Assembly (NCBI GenBank): GCA_015179045.1
Contig: WHUZ01000021.1
Coordinates: forward strand, 310,001 to 374,000
From: Kalaharituber pfeilii
Lineage: Eukaryota; Ascomycota; Pezizomycetes; Pezizales; Pezizaceae
DNA: 64,000 nt
Direction of reading: 5' to 3'
Numbering within the stretch: position 1 is the first letter of the stretch; each line of letters starts with the position of its first letter. Made by a program: the position numbers and the translations under genes. The notes beneath the pieces were generated by a model. The model ran no database searches, was not told where the DNA came from, and was given only the letters and a program-made list of their open reading frames with translations. Below are positions 18,810 through 55,824 of the stretch, piece by piece.

Positions 18810-19153
18810 CTGGGTACAGTAATTTTTTTTTTTTTTTTTTTTTATATCATTACTCGCGTGCCGCCCTATGGGCTATGGCGAGGTCTAGTTACATCAAAAC
18901 AAAGTACAAGTACGGAAAAATAGAAGTAAATCCAACGCGCATCCATCCCCGGGACTAACCCCATTCCAAGATTCCCATCACTCCCCGGAGGCCCTCCCTT
19001 TCATCTTGGTCATCCAAGGGTCTGCACAATCCATCCTCACCCCTTGGGCATCTCGGCTTCCAGACTCTACATTGGGACAATATGTGGTGGGTCGTTTCTT
19101 CAGCCTCACCGCACCACCGGCATTCCGGGCTGTCAGCTGGCTGGGTACAGTAA
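18810..19153 (-). mobile_element. 5'-truncated LINE (318 bp) with 13-bp TSD
   Basis: Perfect TSD CTGGGTACAGTAA at 18810-18822 and 19141-19153 bounds 18823-19140. Read on the minus strand it encodes the C-terminal zinc-knuckle region of a Tad1-type LINE (PECRWCGEAEETTHHILSQC, CX2C..H..C), then a 3' UTR, then the family-A hairpin and poly(A). It is the key copy that ties the ultrashort family-A insertions to a LINE. Confidence 0.9.
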
Positions 19154-19835
19154 GCATATCAAAGTAGCTTGCATAGTTCTATTGAATCGCTGTGAAGAAT
19201 ATGAAAGCAAGGCCTCAAGCAAGGTCTGCATTGCGGAGATAGCTTCGCACGAAATGTATGCGGGTGTGAGATATCGTTGAGTCTATTTATCAATGAATCG
19301 CAGGACGGACAGGTTTATATACATGAGTGTATCATGACGTGAGTATAGAACCATGGCCAAAGAAGAAAGATCAAGAAGGCGTTGCAGTCACCGATATCAT
19401 AGCTACAAAAGGTACTGAGATATGAGTCCTATGCAATGATAGAAGGATAAACATGCATGTGAGTACAATGAAGTAGTCATAAATGAACTATGCATACAGG
19501 GAGTAACTGCAACATCAGGCAACGGATGTAATATTCGGACAAAGAAGTGGTCTCGATGCATCATAAAGAACTGCGTCTCTTCCATCATATCCCGCGCCAC
19601 TATCTATTAATGCCAAAGGGTCTCTGAGCATCATGATCGATAACGGGTATCTTTCTTGTCGGAATCGTACGGTCGGCTTGTCTTCAAGTTTTGTGGTTGT
19701 TGAGACACAGCCTATAGAAGTTGTAGTGCTGGAAAACGGAGTCCTATGTAGCTCTAAGCTGGAGCTGTGGGCAGCTCCACCGAGTGTTGTGCACCAGTCA
19801 CAATCCTTAGGCTCCTAGCATCACAGCGGTGAAAA
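19154..19835. other. No supported feature
   Basis: Intergenic sequence downstream (on the - strand) of the DUF7580-type gene. Only short unrelated ORFs; nothing recognised. Confidence 0.4.
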
Positions 19836-22111
19836 TTACTCTGTCAGATTGCGACTCTTGGTGTCCTCACTTGACCCCCACCCCTGCATAAAATACCGCT
19901 CCAACGGCCTCACCACCAAATTATAAACCTCTTTCTTGAAATCATCCCGATCGAGCGTCTTTTTTCCTGGATGGTCCAATCCATCAATACACCTTCGCGC
20001 CGCGTTAAAATACGGATCACAGTCCGCATATTGTGTCTCCAGATGCTCCATAATCCCTTTTGCAGCAATGAACCGGTTAATCTTATCATCTCCGGAGGGA
20101 TCGAGAGGTATACTAAACTTTTTTTGTAATGATGCCAGGCTCTTCCATTTCAATAGTTCGATTAGAATAATACCGAGGGAGAGAAGACTTTCGTTCGGCG
20201 CGAGCACACGCCAAAGTGAATCTTGAGGGTTTTCGGCACACTGAAGTGTAGGAGGTTTGTCAGGGCGGGAGAAAGCTCGATGAACCAACGGCGTAGCAAG
20301 TATATGTTCTATAGGTGCCTCAAGATTTTGAAACCAAATGTCCGAAGCGGACCAGAAATCATTCAACCAAGCCGTGGAATGCAGTTGCATGACAGATGAG
20401 GCAAGCTTAAGTCCGACGGTTATTCGAGATTTGAGGGATGGCTTTGGCAGGGGCCGAGAGGTGAGGAGAGACTCTAGGGAAACAACCTCCGCAGGGCAAA
20501 TATATAGCGAATGCTCTTTAGGGACCCACACTCGAGTTAGTAGAGCGGGGTTGCTTTTAGCAGAGAGGATTCCCAGGCAACAGTGAATATCAGTTGCGGA
20601 TCGTATTGTAGTGCAGAAGCGGTCAATCGTTGTAAATGTTGCTTTGTTGTAGTTGTCTGCTTTATATATAAGTTCTGCCGGAGGGGCTGGGACTTTATTC
20701 TCATCATTGATAGTCTTCCCCGGATTAGGTTGACTCCACGATACAAATTTTGATTTTCGGCCCTTGACCGCTGGAAGTTTAGACTTGGAAGTGCTGTTCT
20801 CTGCAGGAGGACGTTCGGGCTGAGTATGTTTGGAAAATCTGGAAGCCATGCGTGGGTGACTTGGGTTTCTTATACCGATTGTAGTCAGTAATGATAAACC
20901 TCAGGTATTGGCCGTAGGTGATTTAGGAGGAGTTCAATGCTGTACCTAACGGAAGTTTTGGTTGGATTACTCCTGCTCACACTCGAAAGTGGAGTCGCTA
21001 TTGCATTTTTGGAGAGAAATATAATCTTTTCATCGTCTTCGAACGCATCTCCAGGTGGAATAAAAGTACCCAGCGCCTGCTCGGGGCCTCGTTCCTGGGT
21101 TATGTATGATACAACTTCCGGCACTTCCTTCGGAAGCTGTGGAATCTCTACCGGATGTATATGCTCAAACTGTAGTTCTCTCCATGTGCTCGGCTTTACC
21201 CGCAAGTCCTCGATAGAAAACATGACCTTGAATAGCAGTTTTGGATCGCTGTGCGATTTCGGCGCAGCACAGAAACCAGTAGTGCTCTGCAACTCCAGCT
21301 GCAGGTTCGCGTGATGCGGCGTAGGGCAAGCACAAACTGGCGGTTGGAAATGCTCCTGAAAGATCTGGTAAAGCGCCTTTGCATGACTCTGCACCCGCTT
21401 ATACTGTTGGACCGCTTTTGCAAGAAAAGCTTTGTTGTTGTTTCCCTGACCAATGATAAGCGGATATTCATAACCTACACTAGACATGCTAATGAACTGT
21501 TGGAGCTTGATATTAAGCATGCGGATGCGCTCAATCTGCGTTTGCCGGTAAGTAGCTAGCATGCCGCTTTTCCACGCCAGAAGTGCCTGTCGGTATCGGA
21601 GGGTCTTCGAGGTTGTTCCTACTGGCTATGGTTTCAGTGGGGGTAGAGACAGGTGAGTTAGCCCTCTTTAATCACCATAAACTTTATGCTTCGGAGAAAA
21701 CCTCGTAGAATCACCACTATACGAACTAACCTGTGGAAATTTCTCAGCCACCTCTCGCAATGTTCGATCTAGGAGCTCTGCTGTGCGGAGAAAGAGCATC
21801 ACAGCCCCATCGTCATGCATCCATGCTTGAAGCTCCACCTGAACATTGTTAGACTTCCAAAGCTTTCCTCCGGTATCTTTCATCAAACGATCTATCTCGC
21901 TCGGCTGCAGCTTCCCCTGTAACAAAGTTTCAAGAGTCTGTCGGAAAAAAAAGTCCTCCATCGAAATTTCAAGCTCAAATATATCAAGCACTTCACGGTA
22001 TTTTACCATGTCTTTCATGGTTTGAATCCCTTCGGCGTAGGCTTTAATCGCTGTAAGGGCGAGTGGGAATGCAGCTAGTACAAGTCCGGCGGTTTCGGCT
22101 CCAGTAGCCAT
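19836..22111 (-). CDS. DUF7580-type fungal protein, three exons, 697 aa
   Basis: Exons 22111-21731, 21625-20946 and 20868-19836 sum to 2094 bp. Intron 1 (105 bp, GTTAGT...CCATAG) is phase 0; intron 2 (77 bp, GTACAG...TATAAG with CTGAC branch) is phase 2. The start MATGAETAGLVLAAFPLALTAI is the typical hydrophobic opening of this family and was preferred to an upstream in-frame ATG. The C-terminal half has the pseudokinase-like DUF7580 pattern: SLESLLTSR, ITVGLKLASSVMQLHSTAWL, SLGIILIELL and late VYNLVVRPLERY. These proteins are widespread in ascomycetes, often associated with heterokaryon-incompatibility or NLR-like gene sets, without a proven reaction. Divergent from the C2H2 gene at 22448. 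Family is strong; function inferred only by association. Confidence 0.8.
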
Positions 22112-22447
22112 TGTTTGGAATATCGTGTGCGATGAAATATTGAATCTCAAAAGGGAACGAGTGTTAACATTGACGATGTCCGCAGAACCGCAGCCGCAGA
22201 TATTAATTAATATACCCCACCTCCCAGTTGTAGAATATCATAGCCAATTAAACTGCACCCTTGTACATAGCAGATTAATCGTAAGACACATTGCGGGGTT
22301 TCCAAGATGACAAATAATCCATCACCGCTTTCTAAACAAGGTATCCGCTCGACAAGACACGAGGACCAAATCAACCGCCTTAGGAATTTTAACATATCGT
22401 GGGGGTAAGCATTGTAATTGGGAGGATCCGTTGTGCCTGACAGCGAT
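22112..22447. promoter_or_regulatory. Shared divergent promoter region
   Basis: 336 bp separate two intact divergent genes, so both promoters and 5' UTRs must overlap this stretch. I see no unambiguous TATA box. Confidence 0.5.
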
Positions 22448-25400
22448 ATGTCATCAGTATCAACACGCACCGGCCAAGTGCCAGCTGGATCCATCGCCTC
22501 TTCATATCGTGAGTGCATATCGTATTTCAACGAGCTTTGTTCAACATCCGACTCCTTGGAGGACGAACTAGCCAGAGATGGATTGTCAACATCCTTTGCC
22601 GACGAACTTGCGCGTTTCAGAATTTGGGCTGCAAACTCTGGTGCCCATCACCCTGCCAAGTCGAAATACTCCATGGAGTACCGACTTAGAGAGGCTTCTA
22701 ATGCCACAACAATGGTGCTACGTGCATTGGGAAAGTTAAAACAGTTGTTGCGCAGTGGTAAGCTTCTCACACACCTCCTAATCACGCAAGGGGAATAGCA
22801 GGCAATAACGATGTTGTAGCTGCGGATAGGAGGTCCCACGATCATGATTCCACCGAAGTCGGAGGACACCCGCTAGGCAAGTCAGAGCTGTTGCCACCAT
22901 CATCACCTATCTCATCCTCTGGCTCTTACGACCCCCCGGATCTCGAACCAATATCGGAGGAAGCCCGACTTCAGGATATTTGTTCCAATATCAATGCCAT
23001 TATCACTCTCCTTTACCGACTCCTGATCGCCATCCGCCGTCCAGTAGTCCGTGATGACTCCCCAAAGTATTCTACAATCGATGTTTCTCACTGGGAGTTC
23101 TACGACCGCAAACACGTTCAGGACAAGTTTCCCAAGACCCACGAGTTTCTGTTTACCCGCCTTGGAAAGGCAAATACCCAGCGTCGACAGTTCTTTCAAT
23201 ACCAGAAAGATCACCGGGAGAAGCTTGCGCGCGAGAGAGGGGAGGTACATATCAACGATGAACCAGCTCCACCAGAGGGGACAGTTGTTACCAAGGTGTC
23301 GACCTTGGTTGACCTTCCCGGACCAGCACTGGCGGCAGAGAATCCGCTGGGTATGATGGTGGAAGTGGGGTCGGATGGTGGGCAGACGCAAACGTCTTAT
23401 GCATGTATGTCAGCAATGGGGGATGGTGGGGGCGGACGCAACTTGAAGGCACCGCCCCCGCCGAATTCAGTGCGAGCATATGCGGGAGAACCGTTCGAAT
23501 GCCCATATTGTCTGTACCCAGTTGCTGTGCAGGACTTTCGCTCGTGGCAGTGAGTACGAATTTGATTCCAACTCTCCGTGTTCCCCGCCATAACCCCTCC
23601 TTCCGCTCTCTCTTTTCGCCCAGTGTAAGGCCTTTGTGACACTAATCCCCTTGCTTCCAGTAGGCATCACGTATTCAAAGACCTGCGACCTTACCTCTGC
23701 ACATTCAGGGACTGCACCACCCCGGACCAACTATTCGAGACTCGTCGGAAGTGGTTCGAGCACGAGCTCCAATTTCACAGGAAAGAATGGTTCTGTAATG
23801 ACTGCGAAATTGTATTCACTTCCGAAAAGGACCTTGAAAAACACCTGCAACAACTCCATTCGGGCATATGCACCGCGGTACTCCTACCTATTATCATCAA
23901 AGGATGTCAGAGAGCACCCAAGTCGACTCAACGTTGTGCACTATGTATGGAGGAAAAACCAGCTTCTAAGATCAGGAACCATGTTGCGAGACATTTGCAA
24001 CAATTGGCGCTGTTTTCGCTGCCACAGAGGAAGGATCTCGAGGTGAGTGAGGAGGGCGAGAATCAGGATACTGATGAAAATGAGAGTGGGATATCAGGTT
24101 TGGACAATGCCGACGTCGACCCAGGCCGGCAACAAGCCCCGTCCCTGACCATATTAAGCGATACTACTTCAACGGCATTCTTGAGGGAGGATATCGACGA
24201 GAGTGAGGAAGGCGAGAATCAGGATACGGGTGAGAATGACAGTGGGGTAACAGGTTTGGAGAAACCCGAGGTCGACCCAGGACGGCAACAATTCCCGCCC
24301 ATTGTCAACAATACTATATCGGCATTCTACAATGAAGAGCAGTATGTCACTCGTGCGCAATCGCCTCAGCGAGGAACACAGAGGTACTCACATCCATCGA
24401 CGGATAATAGAGCATCTACCGGACCACTGTCATTAGAGGCATATTATCCACGTCCGCATCAGGGGCAGTTTTCGAATGCATATGGAACCGGGCCACCATC
24501 GCCAAGACAACATTTACATTCCTCTCTGCCGCAATTTACTGGTATGCCTACCCAGCTAGGCATGATACCGGGCGGCTATCGCCCGCTGCCAATGCAGGAT
24601 CGGATGCGCCGCGAGCTCGGCGATCCGTCTCGTCCACTTCCCTCAAGCGCCCTTCTTCACAACAGTGATCCTATTCGTCTTGAGGATCCTAACCCCCTAC
24701 TTTTTGGGCTGCCGGGAGGTCACACTGATGGCTCTCCTTCTCCCGATTATCATCTTCTGAGAGGTCCCTCTCCAGATGATGAGCAAGAAAGGGAATGGGA
24801 GAGGGAAAGAGAGAGGGAATGGAAAGCGGAAATGGTTGTTCTTAATGAAGGCAAGCAGCGGAAATGGACCAAGATCAGCAAAGAGATTTTGTCCCAGCAA
24901 GCAGTGGAGCAGATGGGATACCAGTTTGAGCTGCATGAGGATTCAATCACGATTCATAAAGAGCTGATGAGGGATGAGATTGATCACCTTGTGGAACTAT
25001 CGATGGGTATTCGGGGACATGGAAGGAGAGACAGGGACAGCGAGAGAGATGGGGACAATGGCAGTGCTGGTCCTATTGAGGGCAAGCAATGGAAATGGAC
25101 CAGGATCAGCAGAGAGATTTTGTCCCAGCGAGCAGTGGAGCAGATGGGATACCAGTTTGAGCCGCATGAGGATTCGATCACGATTTATAAAGTGCTGATG
25201 AGGGATGAGATTGATCACCTTGTAGAACTATCGATGAGTATTCGGGGACATGGAAGAACAGACAGGGACAGCGAGAGAGATGGGGACAATGGCAGTGCTG
25301 GTCCTATTGAGGGCAAGCAACGGACATGGACCAGGATCAGCAGAGAGATTTTGTCCCAGCGAGCAGTGGAGCAGATGGGATACCAGTTTGAGCCGCATGA

Positions 25401-25722
25401 GGATTCGATCACGATTTATAAAGAGCTGATGAGGGATGAGATTGATCACCTTGTGGAACTATCGATGAGTATTCGGGGACATGGAAGGAGAGACAGGGAC
25501 AGCGAGAGAGATGGGGACAATGGCAGTGCTGGTCCTATTGAGGGCAAGCAACGGAAATGGACCAGGATCAGCAGAAAGATTTTGTCCCAGCGAGCAGTGG
25601 AGCAGATGGGATACCAGTTTGAGCCGCATGAGGATTCGATCACGATTCATAAGGAGCTGATGAGGGATGAGATTGATCACCTTGTGGAACTATCGATGAG
25701 GATTTCCAATTTGGGGACATGA
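22448..25722 (+). CDS. Fungal C2H2 zinc-finger protein with four C-terminal repeat domains, 1039 aa
   Basis: Exons 22448-22757, 22799-23549 and 23664-25722 total 3120 bp. Introns are 41 bp (GTAAGC...ATAG) and 114 bp (GTGAGT...CAGTAG). The N-terminus has the conserved RFRIWAANSGAHH...SMEYRLREAS and DICSNINAIITLLYRLLIAI blocks of a fungal family. A Cys/His finger block follows: CPYC at 338-341, then HVFKDLRPYLCTFRDC, WFEHELQFH and WFCNDC...HLQQLH. A Pro/Gly-rich linker leads to four tandem 77-residue units (about 749-1036) with WTRISREILSQRAVEQMGYQ and EIDHLVELS, resembling the fungal DUF8035 domain. The best ATG (MSSVSTRTG) was chosen over an upstream TTG. Nucleic-acid or protein binding is likely but the role is unknown. 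Confidence 0.82.
24849..25720 (+). repeat. 231-bp in-frame tandem repeat, four copies
   Basis: GGCAAGCA recurs at about 24850, 25081, 25312 and 25543, exactly 231 bp (77 codons) apart. Copies 2-4 differ at only a few bases, whereas the last is cut short. The near identity implies very recent expansion or gene conversion. Confidence 0.92.
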
Positions 25723-27500
25723 AAGACGAGACACGGACAGCAAGAGAGGCAGGGACCGACATGTTACGCCTCCCCCACCCCAAGCTTACCTCGATGGGCG
25801 CCTCTCGGCTGCGACGGTGTGACCTGCGCCACACCTCTATCGTCTTGTTCGCCGTTTCCTAAACTGAAAGCTGTACTCTACAGGCAGCCTTGGCCGCCCG
25901 CTCATCACCAGTTCCTCATCGTCTTCCCCTTAACAAGCGCCTTAAGTAACAAGCATTTTGTAACTCAACAGGGATGTAAGGGATGTTTCGTTTCAACACT
26001 CAATGGCTTCTCTCTTCCACCCGACGTACTCTACTTCCGCTTTCTCGCTCCAATTCACTCGTTTCGTACACCCATTCACTCGCCCCTCCATCATCCACTC
26101 ATCCCTCTATCTTCCACTGGTTGCGGCATGTGCTTTTACCCTACTTCCTAATACCGCCGCTTCTCCCTATTTTTTTTTTTTTTTTTTTTTTTTAAAAATA
26201 TCAGTACTCGCATGCCGCCCTATGGGCTATGGCGAGATGCTTCTCCCTAGCGGATGTGTTGGGTTCTTGATCTCCTTCCCATGCCGCTTACGTTCCTGGG
26301 CCGCCCGCCTGTTCTATACATAGCTACCATACCTCCTCTCACCTGATGGTGGATTTTCCCAGTTGATTAAGATTTCCTTATGGTAGACACTACAGGTGGG
26401 ATTTGTGCATGCTTTCCTTTAAAATGGTGAAGGAAATAGTAGATATGCTGTGGAGACGCTCCGGGAATACGTCAAAATGGATCCCCAGCATTCAGGTTTC
26501 CACACATCGGGGACATGGAGAGTTGTAGCTATAGCGCTAGAATAATATGACGCAACTCTCTCCACTACTGGTACAGTAAACATACAGATAGCAATGGCAG
26601 AAAGATAGCATCATCGAAGTGCATATGTCATGACGCGAAACTGGACAAATCTGTATAGAGCTGTGACAGAGAGTGGAGAGTGGCTTTCGCTTCCTCAATC
26701 CAAGGAGTTTTGAGATTTCCGGTTCAAGGCGCTGAAAAAGTATCCGCTGCCACCTGTAGTTCATTTCTATTTTAGGGATAAGACTGTGATCTGGGAAGAT
26801 GCCTTCAAAAAAAAAAAATTGTAGGAATTTTACAAGCTTAAGGGCCAAGATTCCGGTAACAAGTCTTGGGAAAATTCAAGGAGATATCGACACAACAGGC
26901 ATGAATATAGGTAGATATTGGACGATCTGGACTAGTGAGATAAAGTTATGTTTGTATACGGAGAGCGGAGGGTGTAGAAAGCAGGTGCTCCAGACACGGA
27001 GAGAGATATATGGGAAGAATAACGGAGCTCGTTGAGCACCCATTTCATATGAATAGAAATAGATCCTTTAGACTATCACTCTGAACATATTCTGTAGTTT
27101 ACACTGGAATCAAAAAATAGCTGAGGTCATGCGGCTAGCTGTCTTAAGAAAATTGCAGGCCACTCCGGTAGCTCAGGGCTCTTTGCATTTGAAGGAGATG
27201 AAATTACTGTAGTTGCATACTTAGCAGCAGCGAAGCAAGGCCGTCAAGTAGTAGCAGGAGAATCGCATGTACTGCCGTAGATAGCATGCAAGCAAGCAAG
27301 CAAATAGCAATAAAACAGCAGAAACAGCAAAAAAGCGAAATAGAAAGCAAGAACGCTTTCTGAAGCCCCTCTCGAACAGTGGACCTTGTTGAAATTATGC
27401 GTACACCCGAGTTGCTATCCGCCACTGGGTGGCGAAGCGCTAGGTACGAAAAAGCCTATTGTATCATTTCTACGATTCCTATTGATTTCATCACTGCTCA
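25723..27500. other. No gene supported
   Basis: Apart from the family-A insertion at 26170-26238 I see no gene. Pyrimidine-rich sequence at 26000-26150 and an A8 run near 26810 create spurious ORFs. An ACTCCGGTAGCTCAGGGC stretch near 27163 is only superficially tRNA-like. Confidence 0.4.
26159..26249 (-). mobile_element. Ultrashort LINE-tail insertion, family A, 11-bp TSD
   Basis: TSD GCTTCTCCCTA at 26159-26169 and 26239-26249. The insert is a T23 run, AAAAATATCAGTACTCGC, the hairpin and CTATGGCGAGAT. Only the hairpin and tail of the LINE are present. Confidence 0.85.
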
Positions 27501-27583
27501 TATCTCGACCTTTTTTTTTTTTTTTTTTTTTAATCACGTGACCCCGCTTGTAGCTCCTCGCCATGGCAGGGCGTATCTCGACC
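27501..27583 (-). mobile_element. Ultrashort tail insertion, family B, 10-bp TSD
   Basis: Perfect TSD TATCTCGACC at 27501-27510 and 27574-27583 around T21 plus AATCACGTGACCCCGC...CCATGGCAGGGCG. The clearest family-B copy: 42 bp of sequence plus tail. Confidence 0.9.
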
Positions 27584-27837
27584 TAAATACTGGGGCTTGA
27601 AGGCGAACATACACTATGTCATCCTTTCACTCTTTGTAGCTTTATTCTAAATTTGGCCTCTTGCTGCCTATCATTAATCATGTATATAAGTCAGAGGTTC
27701 TTGCGACTCTTCATACCATATACGAAATCTGCTACATAATTCTAGAAATTTACTTCAGACCTCAACATCGTGCCTATGTAGCCATGCGTAAATAAGCCAT
27801 GACTTATCCCTGACTAAGCCCCAACCAAGGACTAATC

Positions 27838-27929
27838 ATCCCACCAAATCCCCTCGCCATAGCCCTTAGGGCGGCATGCGAGTAATGATATATTAAAAAA
27901 AAAAAAAAAAAAAAAAATCCCACCAAATC
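27838..27929 (+). mobile_element. Ultrashort LINE-tail insertion, family A, 13-bp TSD
   Basis: Perfect TSD ATCCCACCAAATC at 27838-27850 and 27917-27929. The 66-bp insert reads CCTCGCCATAGCCCTTAGGG, CGGCATGCGAGTAATGATAT, then poly(A). Plus-strand orientation. Confidence 0.92.
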
Positions 27930-33699: not shown

Positions 33700-34040
33700 T
33701 GGTGTCACACCGTGTCAGTATTCACTGGCAGCCCTGCTGGGCATTGCTAAGGCGTGTGAATCAAAGGTTGGCTTGATTCTTTTTTTTTTAAAAAATTTAT
33801 TTTTTTTATTTCACGTAACCCGCTTGCAGCTGTTCGCCATGGCAGGGCGGTTGGCTTGATTCAAGGAGCAGCTGGGTCCGGAAAGTCAACATTCAATCAT
33901 CATCTTGCACACCATTTATGGTCTGAGTATGATAGAGCTTTAGAATCAAGCAACTACAGCGGTTCCTGTATTCATTCCACTCTTCCGAAGTATAATATAG
34001 GGAACCCACAACCACGATGTAATAGCGACTTTCTTTCCTA
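33700..34040 (+). pseudogene. P-loop (STAND/NACHT-like) NTPase relic
   Basis: With the insertion at 33780-33848 and one TSD copy removed, the frame reads SLAALLGIAKACESKVGLI then QGAAGSGKSTFNHHLAHHLW. That is the lead-in, Walker A (GAAGSGKST) and following helix of a fungal STAND-type NTPase. No Walker B or repeat domain follows and the frame soon closes, so only a fragment of about 60 residues survives. Such NTPases are the nucleotide-binding core of fungal NLR-like proteins. Confidence 0.6.
33766..33862 (-). mobile_element. Ultrashort tail insertion, family B, 14-bp TSD, inside a P-loop gene
   Basis: Perfect TSD GGTTGGCTTGATTC at 33766-33779 and 33849-33862. The insert is a T/A-rich tail (partly mutated), TTCACGTAACCCGC and TGTTCGCCATGGCAGGGC. 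It lies two codons before the Walker A motif of the NTPase relic. Confidence 0.92.
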
Positions 34041-35226: not shown

Positions 35227-35305
35227 TCCGACCACTCTTTTTTTTTTTTTTTTATATCATTACTCGCGTGCCGCCCTAAGGGCTATGGTGAGGATCCGAC
35301 CACTC
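35227..35305 (-). mobile_element. Ultrashort LINE-tail insertion, family A, 11-bp TSD
   Basis: Perfect TSD TCCGACCACTC at 35227-35237 and 35295-35305 around 57 bp: T-run, ATATCATTACTCGCGTGCCG, CCCTAAGGGCTATGGTGAGGA. One outer-stem base is mutated (GGTGAG). Confidence 0.9.
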
Positions 35306-36352: not shown

Positions 36353-36433
36353 TATGGTCAACTTTTTTTTTTTTTTTCCTTAAATCAGTACTCGCATGCC
36401 GCCCTAAGGGCTATGGCGAGGGTATGGTCAACT
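36353..36433 (-). mobile_element. Ultrashort LINE-tail insertion, family A, 11-bp TSD
   Basis: Perfect TSD TATGGTCAACT at 36353-36363 and 36423-36433 around 59 bp of poly(T) plus the family-A hairpin ending CTATGGCGAGGG. Confidence 0.9.
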
Positions 36434-36550: not shown

Positions 36551-36581
<31 letters not shown>

Positions 36582-45814: not shown

Positions 45815-46861
45815 CTCAAGCGATGCGATTTTTTTTTTTTTTTTTTATATCATTAATCGCCTGCCGCCCCAGGGGCTATGGCGATGAGTTGTGAGTTTAT
45901 AAACACAAAAATAACAGGAGGAAATGAAATGAGAAAGAATCAGTCTCCGCGGGAAATAACGAAGCGTCCTCATTCTCTGAGCAACCCCATCAGCTTCCTC
46001 AGTGGGTCCTCCCCACCCTCCCCTTCGACCCTTGGAGGTCTCCTCACGTGCTCCTCACCTCCCGGCCACCTCCGTCGCCACACTCTACACTGGCCTAACA
46101 GGTGACCCCTCGTCTCCTCCTCCTCCTCACACTACCTGCACTCCGGACCATCCCCTTCCCCTACGTGCCACCTCAATTCCCGCAAACCTTTGCCCCCCAG
46201 CAGTCCCGCCAGCCGTCCTGTCAGGTGTCCCAACGTTTCTAGCGGTCTATAAGTCAACTCCAGCCGGTTCCTCTCCCCCGCTCTCTCCCTCCTCCCGCTT
46301 TGTCTCATACCGGCTTCCGTCACTAGCTCCGGTGCACTCTGCAACGCCGTGCCCACCCTTGCCGCCTCGTCTGCCGCCTCATTGCCGGCGATGCCCTTAT
46401 GGGCTTTGACCCATAACACCGCCATGTCCCAGTCTCCTCGCTCCACTCTCCTCTCCCACGCTTCTCTAAGCCGGTTCGTCGCCCCGTCGTGGGTGGGATC
46501 CCCCCCGCTGCGTCGGTCATTCTTCTGATTGCATATCTTGAGTCAGTTACTATGAGCAGTTCCCCCTCCACCCTATCCATCGCCTCGCCGATAGCTATTA
46601 GCTCCGCGTCATTCACTGTAGCGTTCTCCCCCAAGTACACCGACGTCGATCTGCCCTCTTTGAATAACCCCGCCCCCGCTATGCCCCCTCTCATGCTCCC
46701 TTCGGTGTACACGGGTGTCCACCCCTCGTCCGTGACGTCGTCTATGTGTCTCTCCCACTCCTCCCGCTCTGCGTCCTTGTGCAGCGTCGGTATGATCACC
46801 ACGGGTAGTTCCCTGCCGTGTGTCAGTGACCCCCTCAGGTAGACCGTCTCAAGCGATGCGA
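45815..46861 (-). mobile_element. 5'-truncated Tad1-type LINE (1019 bp) with 14-bp TSD
   Basis: TSD CTCAAGCGATGCGA at 45815-45828 and 46848-46861, perfect. Minus-strand coding gives the LINE RNase H domain (TPVYTEGSMRGGIAGAG, NDAELIAIGEAMD, LLIVTDSRYAIRR, then KAHKGIAGNEAADEAARVG after a frame change) and the start of the zinc-knuckle region (DGPECR). The usual first catalytic Asp reads Glu in YTEGS. Several frameshifts make it non-coding now. It ends in the ATCGC/GCGAT variant of the family-A hairpin and poly(A). Confidence 0.9.
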
Positions 46862-47133
46862 ACTGCGAAAAAAAGAAACTTAAGCAGCACATTCGGCGTC
46901 TCTAAAATTCAGCTCCTTCATCCCTGCTAGCAAATTGATAATCATGTACCTTCGCTCAACACCCTGCACCATGTCTATCACCCTCGCCAAATGTGGAGAT
47001 TAGTCGGATATGATAATATGCTCCTACGTACTCTTCATGATATAGAGGTCATGTAGTTCGTGTTACCACGTGAGGATGCCGAAGTCTTTGCTAAACGAGT
47101 TAAAGATTTCAGCATTGCCCTACACAAAAGCTT

Positions 47134-47512
47134 AAATCAATCCACATTTTGAATATCTCATTACTCGTGTGCCGCCCCTGTGGACTATGACGAGATTAGA
47201 CACATAGGAGATAAAAGTTAACATAGTAAACTGCGTAAGGAACAATAACAAATAAGTAAACGGCCTGGCCACCTCTCTGCCCATTTCAGCATTTCCTAGA
47301 GCAGATCCAGATTGTCGTCTGGCCCCGTCGGTGGCTTCCTGATCGCCTCCCACACCCCTGGCCATTTCCTTCTCCATACCTCGCACCTGGGCCAGATATG
47401 GTCTGTGATCTCCTCCTCTGTCTCGCACCACTTGCACTCTGGGCTGTCTGCCTTGCCGATTTTGCGTCTCCATGACCCCCAAGCTCGTTGCCCCATCAAA
47501 TCAATCCATATT
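47134..47512 (-). mobile_element. 5'-truncated LINE (349 bp) with 15-bp TSD
   Basis: TSD AAATCAATCCACATT (47134-47148) and AAATCAATCCATATT (47498-47512), one mismatch. Minus strand encodes the post-RNase H region GQRAWGSWRRKIGKADSPEC and ITDHIWPRCEVW with the CX2C...H...C knuckle. The terminal hairpin here is CTCGT/ACGAG, a further paired variant. Poly(A) is almost gone. Confidence 0.85.
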
Positions 47513-47789
47513 GAAAGTACCTCGTCAATTTGCACCTGCAGGGCCGACCAGCACATTACCTCAGCCCAAGCTGAAAGGACAAGTGCTGCGCGTACCGTAA
47601 CAGGATCTGAAATGGCAGAAAGGCAAAGGAAGCAGGCTGGAGCACAAAGTATGGAAGAGGCGACTGAAACTCAAGATTGCATTAATATTACATGCGCTAC
47701 TGCCCTGCAGAGTGTCCTTGTATATACAGAATAACTGTCTTCGTGTTGGAGGCAGCGTAGCATTCAATTCAATCTTAAACCCACCGGGA

Positions 47790-48323
47790 AAACTTGACAT
47801 CCGAAGCGGCGGCCGAGGGATACGCGATCGATCCCTAACAAGTCTAAGACCCTTATCATAGGGGTCAAGGGCCCAGCCTACAGACTCGCGGGGCTGACAC
47901 TGGACTGGGAACTAAAGTTCAACCAACACCACAGGAGACGACTACATCTCGGAAAGGCAGCCTGGGGCGTGGCCTCGAGGCTAACACAACTATCCCCAGT
48001 CAAGAAGCGTCAGCTATAGACTAGCATTGCCCGCACTATAGCAACTTGGGGCAGCTAGGCCTAGACAGACTACGCACGAGGGGCACCCGCAGAGATAAAT
48101 CTGAGAGACCTGGAAAAGTAGCAGTACACCGTAGCCCCAGAAATCACGGGAGCACCGTGGGGCACCCGCCGGGACTTGGTGGAGGGACTGGCAAACCTAG
48201 AGTCCATCCAGACGTTCATATACCACGAGGCGACGAGGGTCGAAGCACGGACGCTGAGACATGCACACGAACGACTGAGAAACGAGGAACCCGACACCAC
48301 ATACCTAAGAGGCTTCCTTCAAT
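47790..48323 (+). mobile_element. Decayed LINE reverse-transcriptase 3' region, interrupted by a hAT
   Basis: With several stops the plus strand reads KTLIIGVKGPAYRLAGLTLD, WELKFNQHH, LGKAAWGVASRLTQLSPVKK, PEITGAPWGTRRDLVEGLAN: the RT thumb/connection typical of Tad1-type LINEs. It resumes after the hAT at 50884-51038 with the RNase H opening ERVEWERAIDEATDEGWDGT and YTDGSRIESRAGAG. The hAT therefore inserted into an already present LINE. Confidence 0.8.
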
Positions 48324-48594
48324 CAGTGTTCCCAACAGGCCGGCCAGACCAGGCCAAGGGTACGGCCTGGGCCGGCCTGGACCGTGAAAATCTAGGCCTG
48401 GGCCTGGCCTGATCTTTCAGGCCGTCCAGGCGGGCCCAGGTTGGTCCAGGCCATTCAGGCCAGTCTAGAACAAAGAGTGAAATAATATAGCCATGCACAC
48501 GAGAGAATAATAGGTAGTGAAATACATATATGCGGTATGTGAAAGAATAATGGGTAGCGAAATAACTACACCTGAAAAGAATGAGAGGTGGTGA

Positions 48595-49110
48595 ATCAAA
48601 CACGCGTTCACGCGAAAAGGAGGCTGGAGAGAGGAAACCTAGACATAGCAGTAATGTGGGTAAAGAGTCATGTAGGCATACTGGGTAACGAAGCAGCAGA
48701 TGAGGCAGCGAGAATAGGGACAGCATTAGAGCAGGCAACAGAGGTGGTGACAGAAGCAGGGATGAGACAGGAGGCAAAGCGGGAGAGAGCACGAGAGAGA
48801 AACCGGCTGGGCCTGACATACCGGCCCCTGGATAGACGGTGCTCAGGTGACACGACTAGCGGGGTTGCTGGGGGCGAAAGGTTTATGCGCCTGGAGACAC
48901 CACATAGGGGAGGCGACAGACCCGGAGTGCAGGTGGTGCGGAGAGGCGGAGGAGACCACTGGACATTTGCTGAACGATTGCAGAGCGTGGCAGAAGAGAT
49001 GGCCAGGTGGCATGGCAGCGGGATGACTCGGGACAGGTACTTTTTACCTGTCCGCTCAGGGACAGGTAGTTCCTTGTATGGTAAGCTGATCGCCAGTGGC
49101 GTGCGCTAAT
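48595..49110 (+). mobile_element. LINE fragment (RNase H C-terminus and knuckle) nested in the hAT
   Basis: Plus-strand ORF with RRLERGNLDIAVMWVKSH and VGILGNEAADEAARIGTALE, NRLGLTYRPL, then a frame-shifted knuckle region. Same LINE family as 45829-46847. 5'-truncated within the RNase H domain; the 3' limit is unclear. Confidence 0.8.
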
Positions 49111-49202
49111 ATGCAGAGTGTTCAAGGGTTACGATTCAGAGGTACCTAAGCTAAGATATTATGTACAATGCCTAAACAACTAAATAGATGCAGTGGAAGA
49201 TA

Positions 49203-49287
49203 CATGAGACCTTTGTTTTTTTTTTGTTTTTTTTTATATCATTGATCGCATGCCGCCCTAAGGGCTATGGCGATTCATGACACCTTG
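49203..49287 (-). mobile_element. Ultrashort LINE-tail insertion, family A, imperfect 12-bp TSD
   Basis: CATGAGACCTTT and CATGACACCTTG flank a T-run plus ATATCATTGATCGCATGCCG and CCCTAAGGGCTATGGCGAT. ATCGC/GCGAT stem variant. Nested inside the hAT. Confidence 0.8.
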
Positions 49288-49587
49288 ATGCGACAAGAAT
49301 AACATCCTACATAGCTTGCGTATCCTCTTCAAGCTCAACTACACCTGAGGAGCCTTCCCTATGGCGCTTTCTAGTATTTCTTGCAGCAGCTGTTCATTCA
49401 GCCAACTCAGCAGAGGTCATAGCATGCGCTTTAGCTTTCCCTTGGTCTTTTCCTGACGAAATTGACTTAAACCTGATGGTACAAATTGCTGGATAATTGG
49501 CTGAGCACCATGACTAGCAAGTGTGCTGGTGAACATGCGTTGCATGTGGCTGGTATGAGTATGCTACAAACATGCAAAAAGCTTTGC

Positions 49588-49626
49588 ATATCATTGATCG
49601 CTTGCCGCCCATGGGGCTATGGCGAT
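49588..49626 (-). mobile_element. LINE-tail hairpin without poly(T), family A
   Basis: ATATCATTGATCGCTTGCCG, CCCATGGGGCTATGGCGAT. ATCGC/GCGAT variant. No T-run and no clear TSD, so an old copy. Confidence 0.65.
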
Positions 49627-49927
49627 GCCTTCTCACCAGTAAGGGTACCATATAACTGTTCTTGGTCATATAATGATCGCAGAAGGAGATATCAGCCTTG
49701 ATTATTATATTGGCTCTGTGGTTGCTGTTGAGGTATTGTAATAGGTAGATCTGTAGGTACTTCTCTGTCGCAGCAATTCGAAAACCACCAAAACGCGGGG
49801 AAGGGGAGGATGATCCGCTACAGGGGCTGATAGAGATGTTGGGAGAGGACGGAACGGGGGACTAGGTTTTCTTTCCTTTCTGTTTACGTGAACATTACTA
49901 GTATGACCTATGTATTTAACATAATAC

Positions 49928-49983
49928 CTCGCCATGGCCTTACAGGCGGCAAGCGAGTATTGATATAAAAAAAAAAAAAAAAA
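49928..49983 (+). mobile_element. LINE 3' end with poly(A), family A
   Basis: CTCGCCATGGCCTTACAGGC, GGCAAGCGAGTATTGATATA, then A18. The upstream pyrimidine-rich stretch resembles the LINE 3' UTR, so this may be the end of a somewhat longer copy. TSD not found. Confidence 0.7.
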
Positions 49984-50620
49984 CGCGATATGTGACCTCA
50001 ATCTGAAAGAACAATAGACTGCGAAATAAGTACACGTGGAAAGAATAATAGGTGGGCAAAATAAATACATCCGGAAAGAATAATAGGGGGTCGAATGAAT
50101 CGATGGGCATTTGACCGCAGTCCCTGCGCGTGGATATTTGTCGGGGTTTAAAAATTAAAAAATTATACCTAAATGGTCTGGACCGGTCTGGACCGCCTGA
50201 ATAGGATCAACCAATCAGTAACTGAAATTTGGTCTTTAATCGCCTATCCGCGGAATAACTACCACCAATTAGTGGCTGAAGTACCGCCTTGGCAACATAT
50301 CTGTATTTATAGAACATGTAATATACGTAATGATTGACTGAATTGAGTAATTTCCATTGTGGTACAGCCAGCACAAGGTCATCTTGCACCTGTACTTATA
50401 CATGTAAAGTTGTTATGATAACCTTTGGGCAGTTCACAGAGTTCAGGCACTGTAGGTGCGAAACTGAGAAAGTGGAATTGAGCAGATAGTAACTGTGAAA
50501 AGTGGGAGGAGGATGTGGTATACTTTGCTATAGCAGGATGTGTGAGTTAGATTCGGCAGGCGCCCACCTCTACACAGTGATCAGAACGTTAACGAGAACA
50601 CAGAATACAGAACACAGAAC
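49984..50620. other. Interior of the hAT element, no gene
   Basis: Contains GAAAGAATAATAGG-type short repeats matching those near 48500-48580 on the other side, and GGTCTGGACCGG motifs near 50175. No coding sequence recognised. Confidence 0.5.
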
Positions 50621-51038
50621 ACAGTTAAAAACAGATAGCATAGTGAACTGAACTCTCTAATGAAATAACTTCCTCAGCACGCAGGCTCAAACTGGTGATG
50701 GTATTAGTATTTGCGCGAACTGGTCTTCCTGAACTGGCCTGAGTCGGCTTGAATGGCCTGAGACGGCCTGAATCGGCCTGAATCGGCCTGCATGTTTCAG
50801 GCCGGTCCAGGCCGGTCCAGGCCATCGAAAGCTCCGCCTGGTCCGCCCCAGGCGGTTTCAGGCCTGGCCGGTTGGGAACACTGCCTTCAATCCCGGGACC
50901 CATAGCAACCTATCCTCCCCATCAGCAGACACGGAGAGAGTAGAATGGGAAAGGGCAATTGATGAAGCTACAGACGAAGGATGGGACGGCACATACACTG
51001 ACGGTAGCCGAATCGAGAGCAGAGCCGGGGCAGGCACA

Positions 51039-52327
51039 TAGTGAGCGGCACGAGCCGAGCCAGCTCGAGCCAGCTCGAGCCCGAGCCCACGCGACTTGAG
51101 CTCCGAGCTCGTCAAATAGAAGGTGGGCTCGAGCCAACGAGCCTTGAATACATGATATTAATAACTAATCTAAACTATTCTACAGCTTCATCCTCATCAC
51201 TACTATCTGCTAAATTCAGTAGCACATGATAGCGCTCATAGTCTCACCTTCCATTCTGTTTCAGCGTGTGTTGAGAACTTCGCCTGCCTGTAGTACATTG
51301 TCAGCTTAGCTAGAGATAGTGTTATGTTGAAATACTTACCTGTGAGAATATCTGTTCGGAGGGGACAGAGGAGGCAGGTATTGCTAAATACTCTCATGCT
51401 ATATGGTCTAGATTTGGCGACATCCCTGCTCGAACTTTGAGGTGGAGGAGCTCTAGAAATGATGCCTTTTCTGCTAGTTTGATTGGTGAATTTGTTGAGA
51501 TAAGAAAGCGGCAAAGGAGTTCACAATACGTGTTTCGGAAAAGCCCTCTGGTTTAGCTCGCTTTGTTGGAACCATTATCTCAAATGGTATTCGTTGCTTT
51601 AATTCTGTGGCGTTTACTAGCTGACGCGAAAGTGGAACTGATGCATGTGACTTCCGAAAATAGTGACGTAAGTCTGGTTACGAGACTAGTGAAGTATGTG
51701 GTTGTTGTACAGCTTTTGACGTGCCAAGTCTTGAAACAATACACACATATAAAATTTCGTGCTCATTATCTGATATTTTTCGCCACAAAATCATACATCT
51801 GTCATAAGAGTTCAAAACAGTACAGTATGCTAATCTTTAACTAAAGAATATTGGCCAGCTAGGCTGGCAAGAAAGGCATTATAAATTGATATAGAATTGG
51901 TTGTCATATTGATAAATTGCCAATTAGTATAAGGAACAAGAATCCTGAAGTGTAGTATGAGGATTAAGGGTCTCGAAGCATAGTATGAGTCTCGAAGTCT
52001 TGAGATTGGGTAGTAGTAAAGAGAAAAGAATTTCAAGAAGATAGAGAGAATAGAGAGGCCTAATATACACTCTTAAAATATGCAACTTACCTTCTAAAGA
52101 TTGATATAGGTCTATGTAATTGAATCACTTTTGATATTTATAGAAGTTGTTGGCAGGTCGGAATGAGCTCCGGATCTCTAATTTATTACCATGTTCGGTA
52201 TTTACAGTTTATGAAACCCTGCGCTGGCTAAGCATTTTAGCGAGCTGTCAAGAGAAACACTAGCGTGATCTTGGCTGTCTCAAGCTCGAGCCAGAGCTCG
52301 AGCCTGCTCGGGTCGTGCCGCTCACTA
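51039..52327. mobile_element. hAT-like element, GAGCTCGAGC family, 1289 bp
   Basis: TAGTGAGCGGCACGAGC at the left and GTCGTGCCGCTCACTA at the right, with GAGCTCGAGC subterminal motifs; longer relative of the MITE at 34232. Flanks CAGGCACA and TATGGACA do not match, so it may be rearranged. An interior open stretch around 51420-51720 (ALEMMPFLLV / SGLARFVGTIISNG-like in two frames) is not recognisable as transposase and could be captured sequence. Left end lies inside the LINE RNase H remnant. Confidence 0.75.
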
Positions 52328-52555
52328 TATGGACAGTACTATTTTACTGATATTCAAGCCTATGCTAGATTCGATAGCTCGCCTACTTTACCTTGAAATG
52401 ATATTATTTTCCTGCCTCCTGAATCCCACTGCTCAACAATATTCTTACAGTAATAATTCGGGTGTAAGACTGCAGTCTTAAACATTGACTGTATGTTATG
52501 GCTAAAGGCTTCCCACAGTCTTTTACGTGGTTACTTTCTGGGCGTCAAACTTAGC

Positions 52556-54527
52556 TAACGTCACTGACCGGGATCCGGCGCACTTCCGGAATAAAAACAA
52601 TAGCCTCCTGTAAGGCCAAATCTTCATAGAAGATAACCAAATTGGACATACAGCTTGGAGAGGTATAGGAAAGTAACTTCCGCACCTCAGTTAGCCAATT
52701 GGAAATTTTGAATGATACTCTATGGTGGTAGTTGCCCAATTAGGCATCTGAACCCTATGCAGGTGTAAAATGGCAAGATGGCTATTGAGGACCTTGAGCA
52801 AGTGCATATACCTTCTATAGTATGTATTCAAGAGATCTGGAATGTTTCATAATAATTGGATATATATGGAACAAGTGGTGAGCCAATATCCATACATATA
52901 TTTTTACTACTAGAAGTGAATTTTGATATTCAGTCTGTATATATTTCTAAAAATATGAGGCATGTTTAAAATGCTCTAGAATATAACTCTATACATAGAA
53001 GAATATATTTTGAGTAGCCTATAGGTATAGGTATTGACAGAAAGTAGAGGTCAATAGGGATATCCATCTATATATACCCAATTAGGTAATGCATATTCCT
53101 TAATACATCATATATGAATGCTGCAGTCCTGAGCTATAAAACTTCAGAAATATAATCTAAAAGCTTCTAGAATATTATATAAAAACTTTTAGAGTGACTT
53201 AATTATGTTTGTTAAAGTTACGTATAATTGCTTAAATTTGGTCTATTTATTTTCTTAGAACTAGATAAAGTAAAGAGAACAGTTGGATTCATAGATGCTA
53301 TTTATTTTACAGAAAAGATAGTGAAAGAGTAAATAAGAAAGTCACCCCTTATAAGTGAGTTGAGTAGTAGGGAGCTAAGTACGGAAATAAAAAAGTGATA
53401 GAAATATATAAGAGTAGAAATAAGTAACAAAAATAAGAAACAAGTAATAAACCTTCTAATACACTTGCGCGATGCCCTCAAAGTAAGGTATTAGTGATGT
53501 ATTAGCTATTATTGGGTCATAATCATAGTATTTATGCATGTTGCAATAATATATAGACTAAAATTCAAGGTGTCTTTATATAGAAGAAGATATAATTATG
53601 TCTACTTTGAGCAAGTAGTATTAGGTCACTCTGAGAGTTTTTATATAATATTCCAGAAGCTTTTAGATTATATTCCTGAAGTTTTATAGCTCAGGACTAC
53701 AGTATTCATATATGATGTATTAAGGAATATGCATTATCTAATTGGGTATATATAGATGGATATCCCTATTGATCTCTACTTTCTGTCAATACCTATACTG
53801 TTACGGAGGTGGTAAACGCAGAAAGTTACCGTCCGCCAGGTCAAAAAGACACTTGACTAGCGATACTCGCTAGTCCTCTGCGTAGCTCATATAGTACTCA
53901 TTATGCGACTGCGGCGCCTTTCCGGCTGTCGCATGTCGCTTACGTCGCATATGCGCATATCGTATGCGCTTGCATTTTTCGCTTTTCACGCGCTCCACCG
54001 GCCGCCCACACTACGGTCGCGGTGAACCCGTAACATATACCTATAGGCTACTCAAAATATATTCTTCTATGTATAGAGTTATATTCTAGAGCATTTTGAA
54101 CATGCCTCATATTTTTAGAAATATATACAGACTGAATATCAGAATTCACTTCTAGCAGTAAAAATATATGTATGGATATTGGCTCACCACTTGTTCCATA
54201 TGTATCCAATTATTATGAAACATTCCAGATCTCTTGAATACATACTATAGAAGGTATATGCACTTGCTCAAGGTCCTCAATAGCCATCTTGCCATTTTAC
54301 ACCTGCATAGGGTTCAGATGCCTAATTGGGCAACTACCACCATAGAGTATCATTCAAAATTTCCAATTGGCTAACTGAGGTGCGGAAGTTACTTTCCTAT
54401 ACCTCTCCAACCTGTATATGCAATTTTGTTATCTTCTATGAAGATTTGACCTTACAGGAGGCTATTGTTTTTATTCCGGAAGTGCGCCGGATCCCGGTAA
54501 TGCGCCGGATCCCGGTCAGTGACGTTA
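52556..54527. mobile_element. Long-TIR (foldback) element, copy A, with solo LTR inside
   Basis: Arms of about 645 bp (52556-53200 and 53632-54527 minus the LTR) are reverse complements around a 430-bp unique centre. Ends read TAACGTCACTGACCGGGATC and its complement; TA at each end fits Tc1/mariner-type TA insertion, though other classes cannot be excluded. The right arm duplicates a GCGCCGGATCCCGGT motif. No transposase found. Both arms carry the same 60-codon ORF (MGNYHHRVSFKISNWLTEV...). Confidence 0.85.
53794..54040. mobile_element. Solo LTR, 237 bp, 5-bp TSD
   Basis: 53799-54035 begins TGTTACGGAGG and ends ACCCGTAACA, with 5-bp TSD TATAC on each side (53794-53798, 54036-54040). The left arm of the host foldback element lacks it, so the empty site is available in the same element for direct comparison. 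Confidence 0.92.
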
Positions 54528-55033
54528 CCAACATGTACAAAGTGGAATTCATGGAATTCACTTCGCCCAGAGATCACATGATACAATTGATGTTGGCTGA
54601 CTCGATGCCCTTTGTGTCCTTATAACCGCCGATCCAGGCGAGCATTGCCTTGTGGAGGTGGGCACTGCCTTCTAGAGGCTTCATCATCAGGATGGTCTGA
54701 AGTAATCACGCTTTCGAGCGGAAGGAATTCATAATTCGATTAAAATCTGAAGTACGTACAGGATCTATGCTTTATATGCCCCTTGGAGCGGCCTTACGAT
54801 TCTCCGAAAACAAGTACATAGACAGACGCCACAGGAAAATTGCCACAGAAAAAAAAAAATCTTTTCACACAATACCATAGTTAATCCGCCTGTCAGGCCT
54901 TCGGCCCCTAGGGGAGGGGGAGAGGGGGAGATATATAGGGGAGCCTCCCTGATGCAGAAACCAGAAGAACCGTCCGGAAGTTTGTGGAATCAGGTAGATA
55001 GAAATTTCTTTGTTTTGAGGGCTTGCCCAGGGA

Positions 55034-55071
55034 CCCTGCCATGGCTTGGCACTGCAAGCGGGGTTACGTGA

Positions 55072-55100
<29 letters not shown>
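55034..55100 (+). mobile_element. Ultrashort tail insertion, family B
   Basis: CCCTGCCATGGCTTGGCACT, GCAAGCGGGGTTACGTGATT, then A27. Stem CCCTGC/GCGGGG is intact. No clear TSD. Confidence 0.7.
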
Positions 55101-55102
<2 letters not shown>

Positions 55103-55749
55103 CCCTCGGCCCATAATTCCTCCGTGCATGAGCGCCAGGATTATCCCATCGTTTCAACATGGTCTTATACAAGGACTTTTGCACGTTGTCACCCTAGGTA
55201 GCTTTCTCAAAGTCTTATTCTCGATTACTTTCTTACACGCGAATTGTTACGGTATTGTAACTACACTCAGCAGACATGATCTTGAGTATTTATTAGTGCA
55301 TCATAGAGCACAGCACCTTCTCAGCTTTAGCGATCCTGTATCTAATTTACTAAAGAGTTCTCTGTTGTATTTTGTTAGGTGTGCAATAGAAGCTCACTAT
55401 CTCCAACGCTTTCATAGTAAGCCGCTGGCAATTGGGGGCGCTACTGCGAATAGTTCTTGTACTCTGAAAGTGCACAATGTTCAGTTACATCCGTGGCGGA
55501 GCGAGCACAGCCCTAGGAAATAGCCTCGCCGTTTTGACAAAGTTCGGAATTTCCCTCCGCTATTGTAGTTTACAATTTAAATACGCGTACGTATGCCACC
55601 CAAGCCGATGTTAGGTCCAGCATAGCCAACAAAATTACCGCATGTGAACTAAAATTTGTGCCTCAATGCGAACTATGACTGTGTTAAACATAAATCTGCG
55701 TTATCTGAGACCGATAGGGTCCAACCGGCCTACCCTCAACGGGCATAGC

Positions 55750-55824
55750 ATTCGTTGCCTTTTTTTTTTTTTTTAAATATCATTAATCGCTTGCCGCCCT
55801 GGGGGCTATGGCGATATTCGTTGC
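55750..55824 (-). mobile_element. Ultrashort LINE-tail insertion, family A, 9-bp TSD
   Basis: Perfect TSD ATTCGTTGC at 55750-55758 and 55816-55824 around 57 bp ending CTATGGCGAT. ATCGC/GCGAT variant. Confidence 0.88.

Follow-up and report, generated by a model that had tools for sequence, protein, structure and literature searches.

The cause of 5' truncation in long interspersed nuclear elements (LINEs), be it drop-off of the reverse transcriptase (RT), a broken template or loss of cDNA, is an old question, and a stretch of DNA from the Kalahari desert truffle, Kalaharituber pfeilii, raises it anew. The window analysed here comprises 64,000 nt (positions 310001-374000 of contig 124, in a genome of 78.0 Mb and 360 contigs) and carries ultrashort insertions that consist of a hairpin, here called hairpin A, followed by 9-13 nt and a run of A. 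Why should these insertions begin at or beside the 5' foot of the hairpin? The cause of truncation is directly testable in this genome, because the competing models predict different end points and junction bases.

Six such insertions, at 26159, 27838, 35227, 36353, 49203 and 55750, had been named in an original prediction made from the letters of the window, which gave each a target-site duplication (TSD) and had all of them stop at the same base. All six are present. The TSDs are perfect at five of the sites; the one at 49203 has a mismatch and scores below the cut-off of 8. The single shared stop base is not borne out, as the 5' TSD ends 2, 2, 2, 2, 1 and 0 nt from the first base of the hairpin (the extra nucleotides in the lines below).

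26159..26249, minus strand: ultrashort A insertion; TSD TAGGGAGAAGC at 26159-26169 and 26239-26249; hairpin at 26207-26236; 2 extra nt; A24
27838..27929, plus strand: ultrashort A insertion; TSD ATCCCACCAAATC at 27838-27850 and 27917-27929; 2 extra nt; hairpin at 27853-27882; A23
35227..35305, minus strand: ultrashort A insertion; TSD GAGTGGTCGGA at 35227-35237 and 35295-35305; hairpin at 35263-35292; 2 extra nt
36353..36433, minus strand: ultrashort A insertion; TSD AGTTGACCATA at 36353-36363 and 36423-36433; hairpin at 36391-36420; 2 extra nt
49203..49286, minus strand: ultrashort A insertion, subtype ATCG..CGAT; imperfect 11-bp TSD AAGGTCTCATG/AAGGTGTCATG; hairpin at 49245-49274; 1 extra nt
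55750..55824, minus strand: ultrashort A insertion, subtype ATCG..CGAT; TSD GCAACGAAT at 55750-55758 and 55816-55824; hairpin at 55786-55815; 0 extra nt

Three longer copies, at 18823, 45829 and 47149, were said to share the same end. The first is a clear LINE insertion; a TSD was sought for the second and none was found, and the third is degenerate. The RNase H frame beside the second scores just under the Pfam cut-off.

18809..19153, minus strand: 5'-truncated family A LINE copy of 317 bp; same hairpin and A21; 14-bp TSD TTACTGTACCCAGC
45829..45885, minus strand: longer family A copy, of which this is the 3' end; hairpin and A18; RNase H frame at 46135-46542
47164..47194, minus strand: degenerate family A hairpin that terminates a longer copy; lacks an A tail

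Insert lengths peak at the hairpin 5' foot

The sequence sampled comprises the window, C2:1-200000 (contigs are cited by C numbers) and targeted stretches, and is non-random with respect to the genome. One scan was blind to the hairpin, with every A-run of score 10 or more taken on both strands of 285,091 bp (the window, C2:1-200000 and a further seven loci of 3 kb each, which were chosen for holding the 13-mer CTCGCCATAGCCC). TSDs were sought up to 400 nt away at a score of at least 8, and swapped flanks served as the control. TSDs were found for 82 of the 197 A-runs, against 5.0 per swapped-flank set. Without their A tails, 53 of the 82 inserts measure 20-49 nt, bins that are all empty in the control, and the commonest length is 39-42 nt. 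The insert-length plot that the original prediction had proposed thus has a sharp peak at hairpin length in the sampled sequence.

Sorted by sequence, the 197 A-runs include 102 with hairpin A, 50 with a second, unrelated hairpin (B) and 45 with neither. The TSD-bearing runs divide into 61 with A, 21 with B and none of any other kind, so that no TSD of score 8 or more was found at the 45 runs lacking both hairpins. Family B behaves like family A, in the window at 27511-27573 and 33780-33848, within the first two of these insertions:

27501..27584, minus strand: ultrashort B insertion; TSD AGGTCGAGATA; C as the single extra base; hairpin GCCCTGCC..GCGGGGT; A21
33766..33862, minus strand: ultrashort B insertion; TSD GAATCAAGCCAACC; no extra nt before the hairpin foot; A tail impure
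2354..2416, minus strand: B insertion cut within the hairpin; 28 nt and A14; TSD ATACAACCA
54895..55115, plus strand: 5'-truncated B copy; imperfect TSD

Measured from the first base of the hairpin, 28 of the 61 family A inserts start at -1 to +4, 12 within the hairpin and 21 at +19 to +333. The TSD caller is greedy in extension, and offsets of -1 to -6 may therefore be microhomology, including those of -2 to -6 among the 12; several of the inserts starting within the hairpin begin at AGGGCGG by the loop. In family B, 14 of 21 start at -1 to +4, three within the hairpin (one of them the doubtful C2:97040) and four beyond the foot, at +35, +113, +122 and +262. The insert at C2:97040 (minus strand), which is among the 82, has 5 nt, a 13-nt repeat CGGGGTCACGTGA and another B tail adjoining it, and is probably a duplicated hairpin B tail rather than a new insertion. 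Ultrashort copies thus make up about 28 of 102 A-type copies (roughly 27%) and 14 of 50 B-type copies, with one A insertion at a duplicated locus (C2:156861 and C2:192936) counted twice.

Two further samples were scored. An earlier scan for family A with a fuzzy regular expression returned 127 unique matches, of which 113 were kept after removal of 14 with 7 errors (locus L057, with 6, was retained); the set overlaps that of the hairpin-blind scan and is enriched in listed C1 and C2 matches. A TSD of score 8 or more was found for 57 of the 113, with 22 starts at 0-3 nt from the foot and 35 scattered over 7-384 nt, and 0.36% of swapped-flank trials reached a score of 7 no farther than 6 nt away. 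The window copies at 35280 and 47182 escaped that scan, and an ungapped two-arm scanner was used afterwards. For family B, 40 of 100 listed exact 19-mer places (1755 genome-wide) were read on C1, C3 and C4. TSDs accompany 26 of them, at offsets 0 (18 copies), +1 (five), +6, +37 and +38 (one each), and 23 of the 40 lie at the foot, two of these with low-scoring TSDs (8.0 and 8.4). Swapped flanks reached a score of 8 in 9 of 764 trials, none within 4 nt. The breakpoint is therefore non-random, as had been predicted, with foot peaks of 28/61 in A, 14/21 in B and 23/40 in the further B sample where the controls are empty.

Family B has a second breakpoint. From the 131 B copies preceded by CCCAGGG, which continue upstream, 20 were sampled and 120 nt upstream of each was read. 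Eight have a TSD, and all eight start at or beside AAGCCTGCCTCCGGGCTT (a one-base variant in one insert), a predicted hairpin that is the next one upstream and is called hairpin 2. Six of the eight are plain and two needed judgement: in L185 an AA overlaps the TSD, so that microhomology is needed for the second-foot reading, and in L188 (C34:9804-10029) the TSD is followed by 15 T at the 5' junction and then by hairpin 2 and hairpin 1. Nine of the other 12 run into one common LINE 3' untranslated region (UTR), and three (L180, L181 and L187) differ from these upstream and lack a TSD scoring 8 or more. The inserts at +37 and +38 in the further B sample, and that at +35 in the hairpin-blind scan, begin at the same hairpin 2, and no TSD-bearing insert of the upstream-continuing sample starts between the two feet.

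Empty paralogous sites exist as well. The flanks of 57 inserts were joined and searched for in all sampled sequence. For the ultrashort A insertion at C2:183703, which lies in B LINE DNA, this gave two empty paralogs that match without gaps at 98.6% over 140 nt. Further junction-spanning paralogs were found for C2:196443 (96.5%, one gap), C2:124254 (95.7%, one gap, family B), C2:9797 (94%, one gap) and C2:152534 (85.9%, no gaps); most of the 57 have none in the sampled sequence.

The hairpin postulated in the original prediction is real, in that covariation supports the family A stem. It folds into a 5-bp outer and a 4-bp inner stem (9 pairs) at -11.5 to -13.5 kcal/mol with the tail. In a set of 100 unique hairpins of 30 nt, standard pairs occupy 93.8% of the pair cells, against at most 90.2% in column shuffles and 16-53% in slid versions. 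Double changes fill 37 cells, against at most 14 in 500 column shuffles and 1-14 in slid versions, and for the most part replace C-G by A-U in the foot pair or by U-A beside the loop; since the structure was derived from the sequences used in this test, the comparison is biased in its favour. For hairpin B a fold with a 7-bp outer stem is predicted, and three hairpin 2 variants are predicted to fold alike. Genome-wide, the 13-mer CTCGCCATAGCCC occurs 3370 times (1695 + 1675; reversed control 0) and the variant ATCGCCATAGCCC 1883 times (control 1). Among the matches listed, hairpin copies are strongly clustered on C1: CTCGCCATAGCCC is absent between 549730 and 2329763, where the ATCG variant and hairpin B have just a few matches, and is found on both arms.

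Two local arrangements may be recorded here. Two ultrashort A insertions lie in opposite orientations within about 100 bp at C2:41044-41150, and two ultrashort B copies, L142 (C1:178252) and L144 (C1:213851), apparently sit inside the hairpin of other B LINE copies and are likely one duplicated insertion.

Template ends and the reverse transcriptase

The reading that we prefer, at a probability of about 0.5, is that the ultrashort copies are products of target-primed reverse transcription (TPRT) by the genome's own LINEs, acting on RNA templates whose 5' ends already lay at the 5' foot of the terminal recognition hairpin. In this scheme, for which we infer an RNA stub, its 5' decay and its protection by the RT, full-length LINE RNA would be degraded from the 5' side and decay would halt at folded hairpins of the 3' UTR, most strongly at the terminal one, where bound LINE protein would probably protect the RNA. 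The surviving stub (hairpin, about 9 nt and an A tail of about 21) would still be a complete substrate, which the RT could copy to its end, at times adding one or two bases, before insertion with a normal TSD.

Several points recommend this reading. Among them are the foot peak in two families with different hairpins and the exact haplotypes and equal median A tail (21) that ultrashort copies share with LINE-continuing ones. Because an RT copies its template from 3' to 5' and enters a hairpin by its 3' side, a hairpin that blocked the enzyme should do so at the near foot, and breakpoints at the far foot fit a template that ends there. Moreover, the two B hairpins, each with a breakpoint at its 5' foot, fit 5'-to-3' decay that stalls at structure. 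The junction bases of family B are also of the kind expected from addition at run-off. Where the core is clear and just one base is added, that base is t, a, c, t and t in the further sample and C, C, C and G in the hairpin-blind scan, and since longer B copies nearly always have G at this position, just one of the nine matches the LINE base.

Several features of the data weigh against decayed templates as a full account, among them the family A junctions. A classification set of 207 family A copies (six unclassifiable; C2:156861/C2:192936 and the duplicated insertion C14:58374/C168:3614 each counted twice) yielded 58 ultrashort copies by relaxed and 49 by strict rules; the 58 hold at least one false positive (C33:84144, where LINE sequence was taken for a TSD) and the doubtful C2:144526. 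Offsets among the strict 49 are 0 (22), 1 (7), 2 (14), 3 (4) and 4 (2). Directly before the hairpin, 16 of 27 ultrashort A copies with extra bases have C (p about 1e-4 against 0.24), as do 82 of 104 longer-copy clusters, and the base preceding this one is A in 13 of 20 and 70 of 104, respectively. Family A copies thus often stop 1-3 nt outside the stem, and their extra bases, unlike those of B, look templated, which points to slightly different end chemistry in the two families. The 12 of 61 A inserts that start within the hairpin point to some RT drop-off, and abortion by the RT probably adds some inserts. The median A tail is 21 in ultrashort and long family A copies alike, so that ultrashort tails lack the shortening that deadenylation-dependent decay might predict. 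No clustering is visible among the 21 beyond-foot A inserts (+19 to +333) or three of the four in B (+113, +122 and +262), and the hairpin rule is accordingly seen only near the 3' end. Lastly, a B subtype treated below (subtype G) has far more non-continuing copies than subtype ACCC, for which the stub model gives no reason.

The original prediction had suggested that the RT routinely halts on the far side of its own hairpin. In its developed form, this reading has the RT start on full LINE RNA and often leave just after copying the recognition hairpin, through a failed switch from initiation to elongation. We regard this as possible, if rather doubtful. Truncations within the hairpin do suggest abortive early synthesis, and the LINE-like extra bases of family A are expected if the template continues. 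Two papers lend it further support: a Magnaporthe LINE RT switches templates at sequence hot spots with predicted hairpins adjacent (PMC2104539), and human L1 ORF2p holds a hairpin stem beside the A-tract (PMC10830416). Yet the enzyme would meet the hairpin at its 3' foot and stop at the far one, the second breakpoint lies at the far foot of a hairpin that is not terminal, and the extra B bases are mostly non-templated. Two more specific causes were considered and rejected. The GCC hot-spot rule of Magnaporthe would place the A breakpoints 6 nt inside the hairpin, and the grip of the RT on the hairpin does not account for breakpoints at the 5' foot.

A third explanation transfers the folding to the cDNA: a longer cDNA would form the same hairpins, and nucleases would cut its 3' single strand back to the foot before second-strand synthesis. 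Such trimming predicts breakpoints at the 5' feet of successive hairpins as well as the LINE-templated extra bases of family A. It does not predict the mostly non-templated bases of family B or the truncations within hairpins, and we think it unlikely.

LINE copies or an independent hairpin element

Are the ultrashort copies derived from LINEs at all? Two exact 39-nt haplotypes of family A answer for their own copies. All 18 copies of the first were read: nine continue in one LINE 3' UTR, one ends 9 nt past the foot and eight are ultrashort (one with a 6-nt TSD, one with 4 extra bases). For the second, 26 of 38 copies were read: 18 lie in one LINE 3' UTR and C223:2106976 in related sequence, and seven ultrashort places represent six distinct insertions, one locus being duplicated (the copy on C257 has an imperfect TSD). 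Because both kinds of copy share exact haplotypes, the ultrashort copies of these two haplotypes derive from the RNAs that also gave rise to the LINE copies. The core is identical to that of a long copy in 21 of the 58 relaxed ultrashort copies.

These results bear on the other suggestion of the original prediction, that a minimal hairpin RNA is an independent retroelement, here understood as a distinct RNA of hairpin and poly(A) that has a source of its own and is moved in trans by LINE proteins. For family A this is unlikely, as both haplotypes mix LINE-continuing and ultrashort copies; for subtype G of family B it might hold. Subtype G, with the hairpin GCCCTGCC, has 1321 exact 21-mer copies, of which 148 are preceded by AGGG as in LINE copies, or about 8 non-continuing copies per LINE-continuing copy genome-wide; the count without AGGG takes in mutated copies too. 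In the subtype with ACCCTGCC (ACCC), 257 of 343 copies are preceded by AGGG. Within the 40-copy B sample, 21 of 29 G-first copies without AGGG are ultrashort with a TSD at the foot, and AGGG precedes one ultrashort copy by chance. The genome-wide ratio in subtype G greatly exceeds what family A shows, where roughly 27% of copies (28/102) are ultrashort, and is what speaks for an independent element. Against it, the commonest core haplotype of subtype G is the same in upstream-continuing copies (11/20) and in the others (7/29), and an insert of about 40 nt would presumably be too small for a known promoter. A G-type LINE exists, because the G copy L174 has upstream of it a C-terminus that, by eye, resembles that of the B LINE. 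We judge an independent element quite improbable.

A more far-reaching reading strikes us as rather unlikely. Under it, LINE retrotransposition would have a second, quantised output, with RNA stubs set by successive protected hairpins being reinserted, probably hundreds of times or more, and in the GCCCTGCC subtype of family B a hairpin-poly(A) RNA of about 40 nt would amplify as an independent retroelement that has neither head nor promoter nor gene. Such a retroelement would, to our knowledge, be smaller than any known. Random 5' truncation, with the peak an artefact of TSD calling, has virtually no standing: the 21 A inserts at +19 to +333 do look random, but the density at the foot against that beyond it is incompatible with a flat distribution, swapped-flank controls are empty at the foot, empty sites exist, and the foot peaks of both families and the second B breakpoint refute it.

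Known systems and neighbouring features

LINE frames with RVT_1, RNase_H and endonuclease domains are located upstream of the hairpins. In the B LINE at C2:84760-88373, RVT_1 (1.5e-23) and RNase_H (7.8e-11) are joined by Exo_endo_phos in an overlapping frame, so that endonuclease, RT and RNase H occur together, as in Tad1-like LINEs. A LINE fragments contain RNase_H (1.6e-15), with RVT_1 (2.7e-6) and zf-RVT below the cut-off. The two LINEs are related yet distinct (33% identity over 169 aa of the RT, 31% over 229 aa of the C-terminus), and both may belong to the Tad1-like clade. A repeated frame ending KK(A/T)SS(V/I)VIYLEGEVESDSQTPAK lies a short way upstream of hairpin B at C2:148036-148641, 161638-162210 and 180917-181708 (the L023-L027 region). 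The one such frame tested (L025:1638-2210) had no Pfam match, and the frame may possibly mark a non-autonomous element with its own gene that is moved by B LINEs.

The truffle inserts share with 5'-truncated TPRT insertions of LINEs their TSDs (mostly about 9-15 bp), the A tail and a 3' end identical to that of LINE copies; they differ in that their 5' ends are often at hairpin feet and the commonest insert is about 40 nt. The stringent-type LINEs ZfL2-1 and ZfL2-2 have a 3' stem-loop that is bound by LINE protein (PMC4176376). The truffle inserts likewise have a conserved 3' stem-loop (by covariation for A), with hairpin A or B in all 82 TSD-flanked A-run inserts, whereas the truffle LINEs are fungal, are poly(A) tailed, have two stem-loop families and produce abundant stem-loop-only inserts, none of which are reported for ZfL2-1 and ZfL2-2 in the passages of PMC4176376 consulted. 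By analogy, binding of LINE protein to a 3' stem-loop, or to a hairpin next to an A-tract as in human L1 (PMC10830416), could protect a stub. The closest fungal report concerns template switching in the MINE of Magnaporthe, in which pieces of 230-5461 nt from the LINE MGL are joined to a different RNA and the switch point carries a GCC motif (PMC2104539); a fungal LINE RT there, too, leaves its template at preferred sites, whereas the truffle copies read have no fused RNA and break at a stem foot. Short interspersed nuclear elements (SINEs) with LINE-like 3' tails (PMC3747384) are likewise non-autonomous and have a LINE 3' hairpin in common, whereas the truffle inserts lack a head derived from a small RNA and the family A inserts followed form no separate lineage. 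No SINE head or promoter was seen when the ultrashort copies, which are hairpin, a few to about 15 nt and an A run, were read by sequence, no RNA-family search having been made.

The truffle inserts are thus TPRT products of a known kind, for whose hairpin-foot 5' ends and hairpin-only size no description was found among the titles and abstracts listed by literature searches, which is weak evidence of absence. They suggest that the minimal mobile unit of a stringent-type LINE is a hairpin with an A tail, and they add an insert class of about 60 bp that would probably escape annotation and repeat finders.

Two other family A hairpins lie in the window. The first resembles the ultrashort A insert at C2:102516, which lies in similar flanks and has a tail and a second TSD; the second hairpin is probably the 3' end of a longer copy.

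49588..49626, minus strand: family A hairpin; no tail and no 3' TSD
49928..49983, plus strand: family A hairpin and A17; TSD not found

On the minus strand, 7175-12820 holds large frames that we take to resemble a Helitron helicase.

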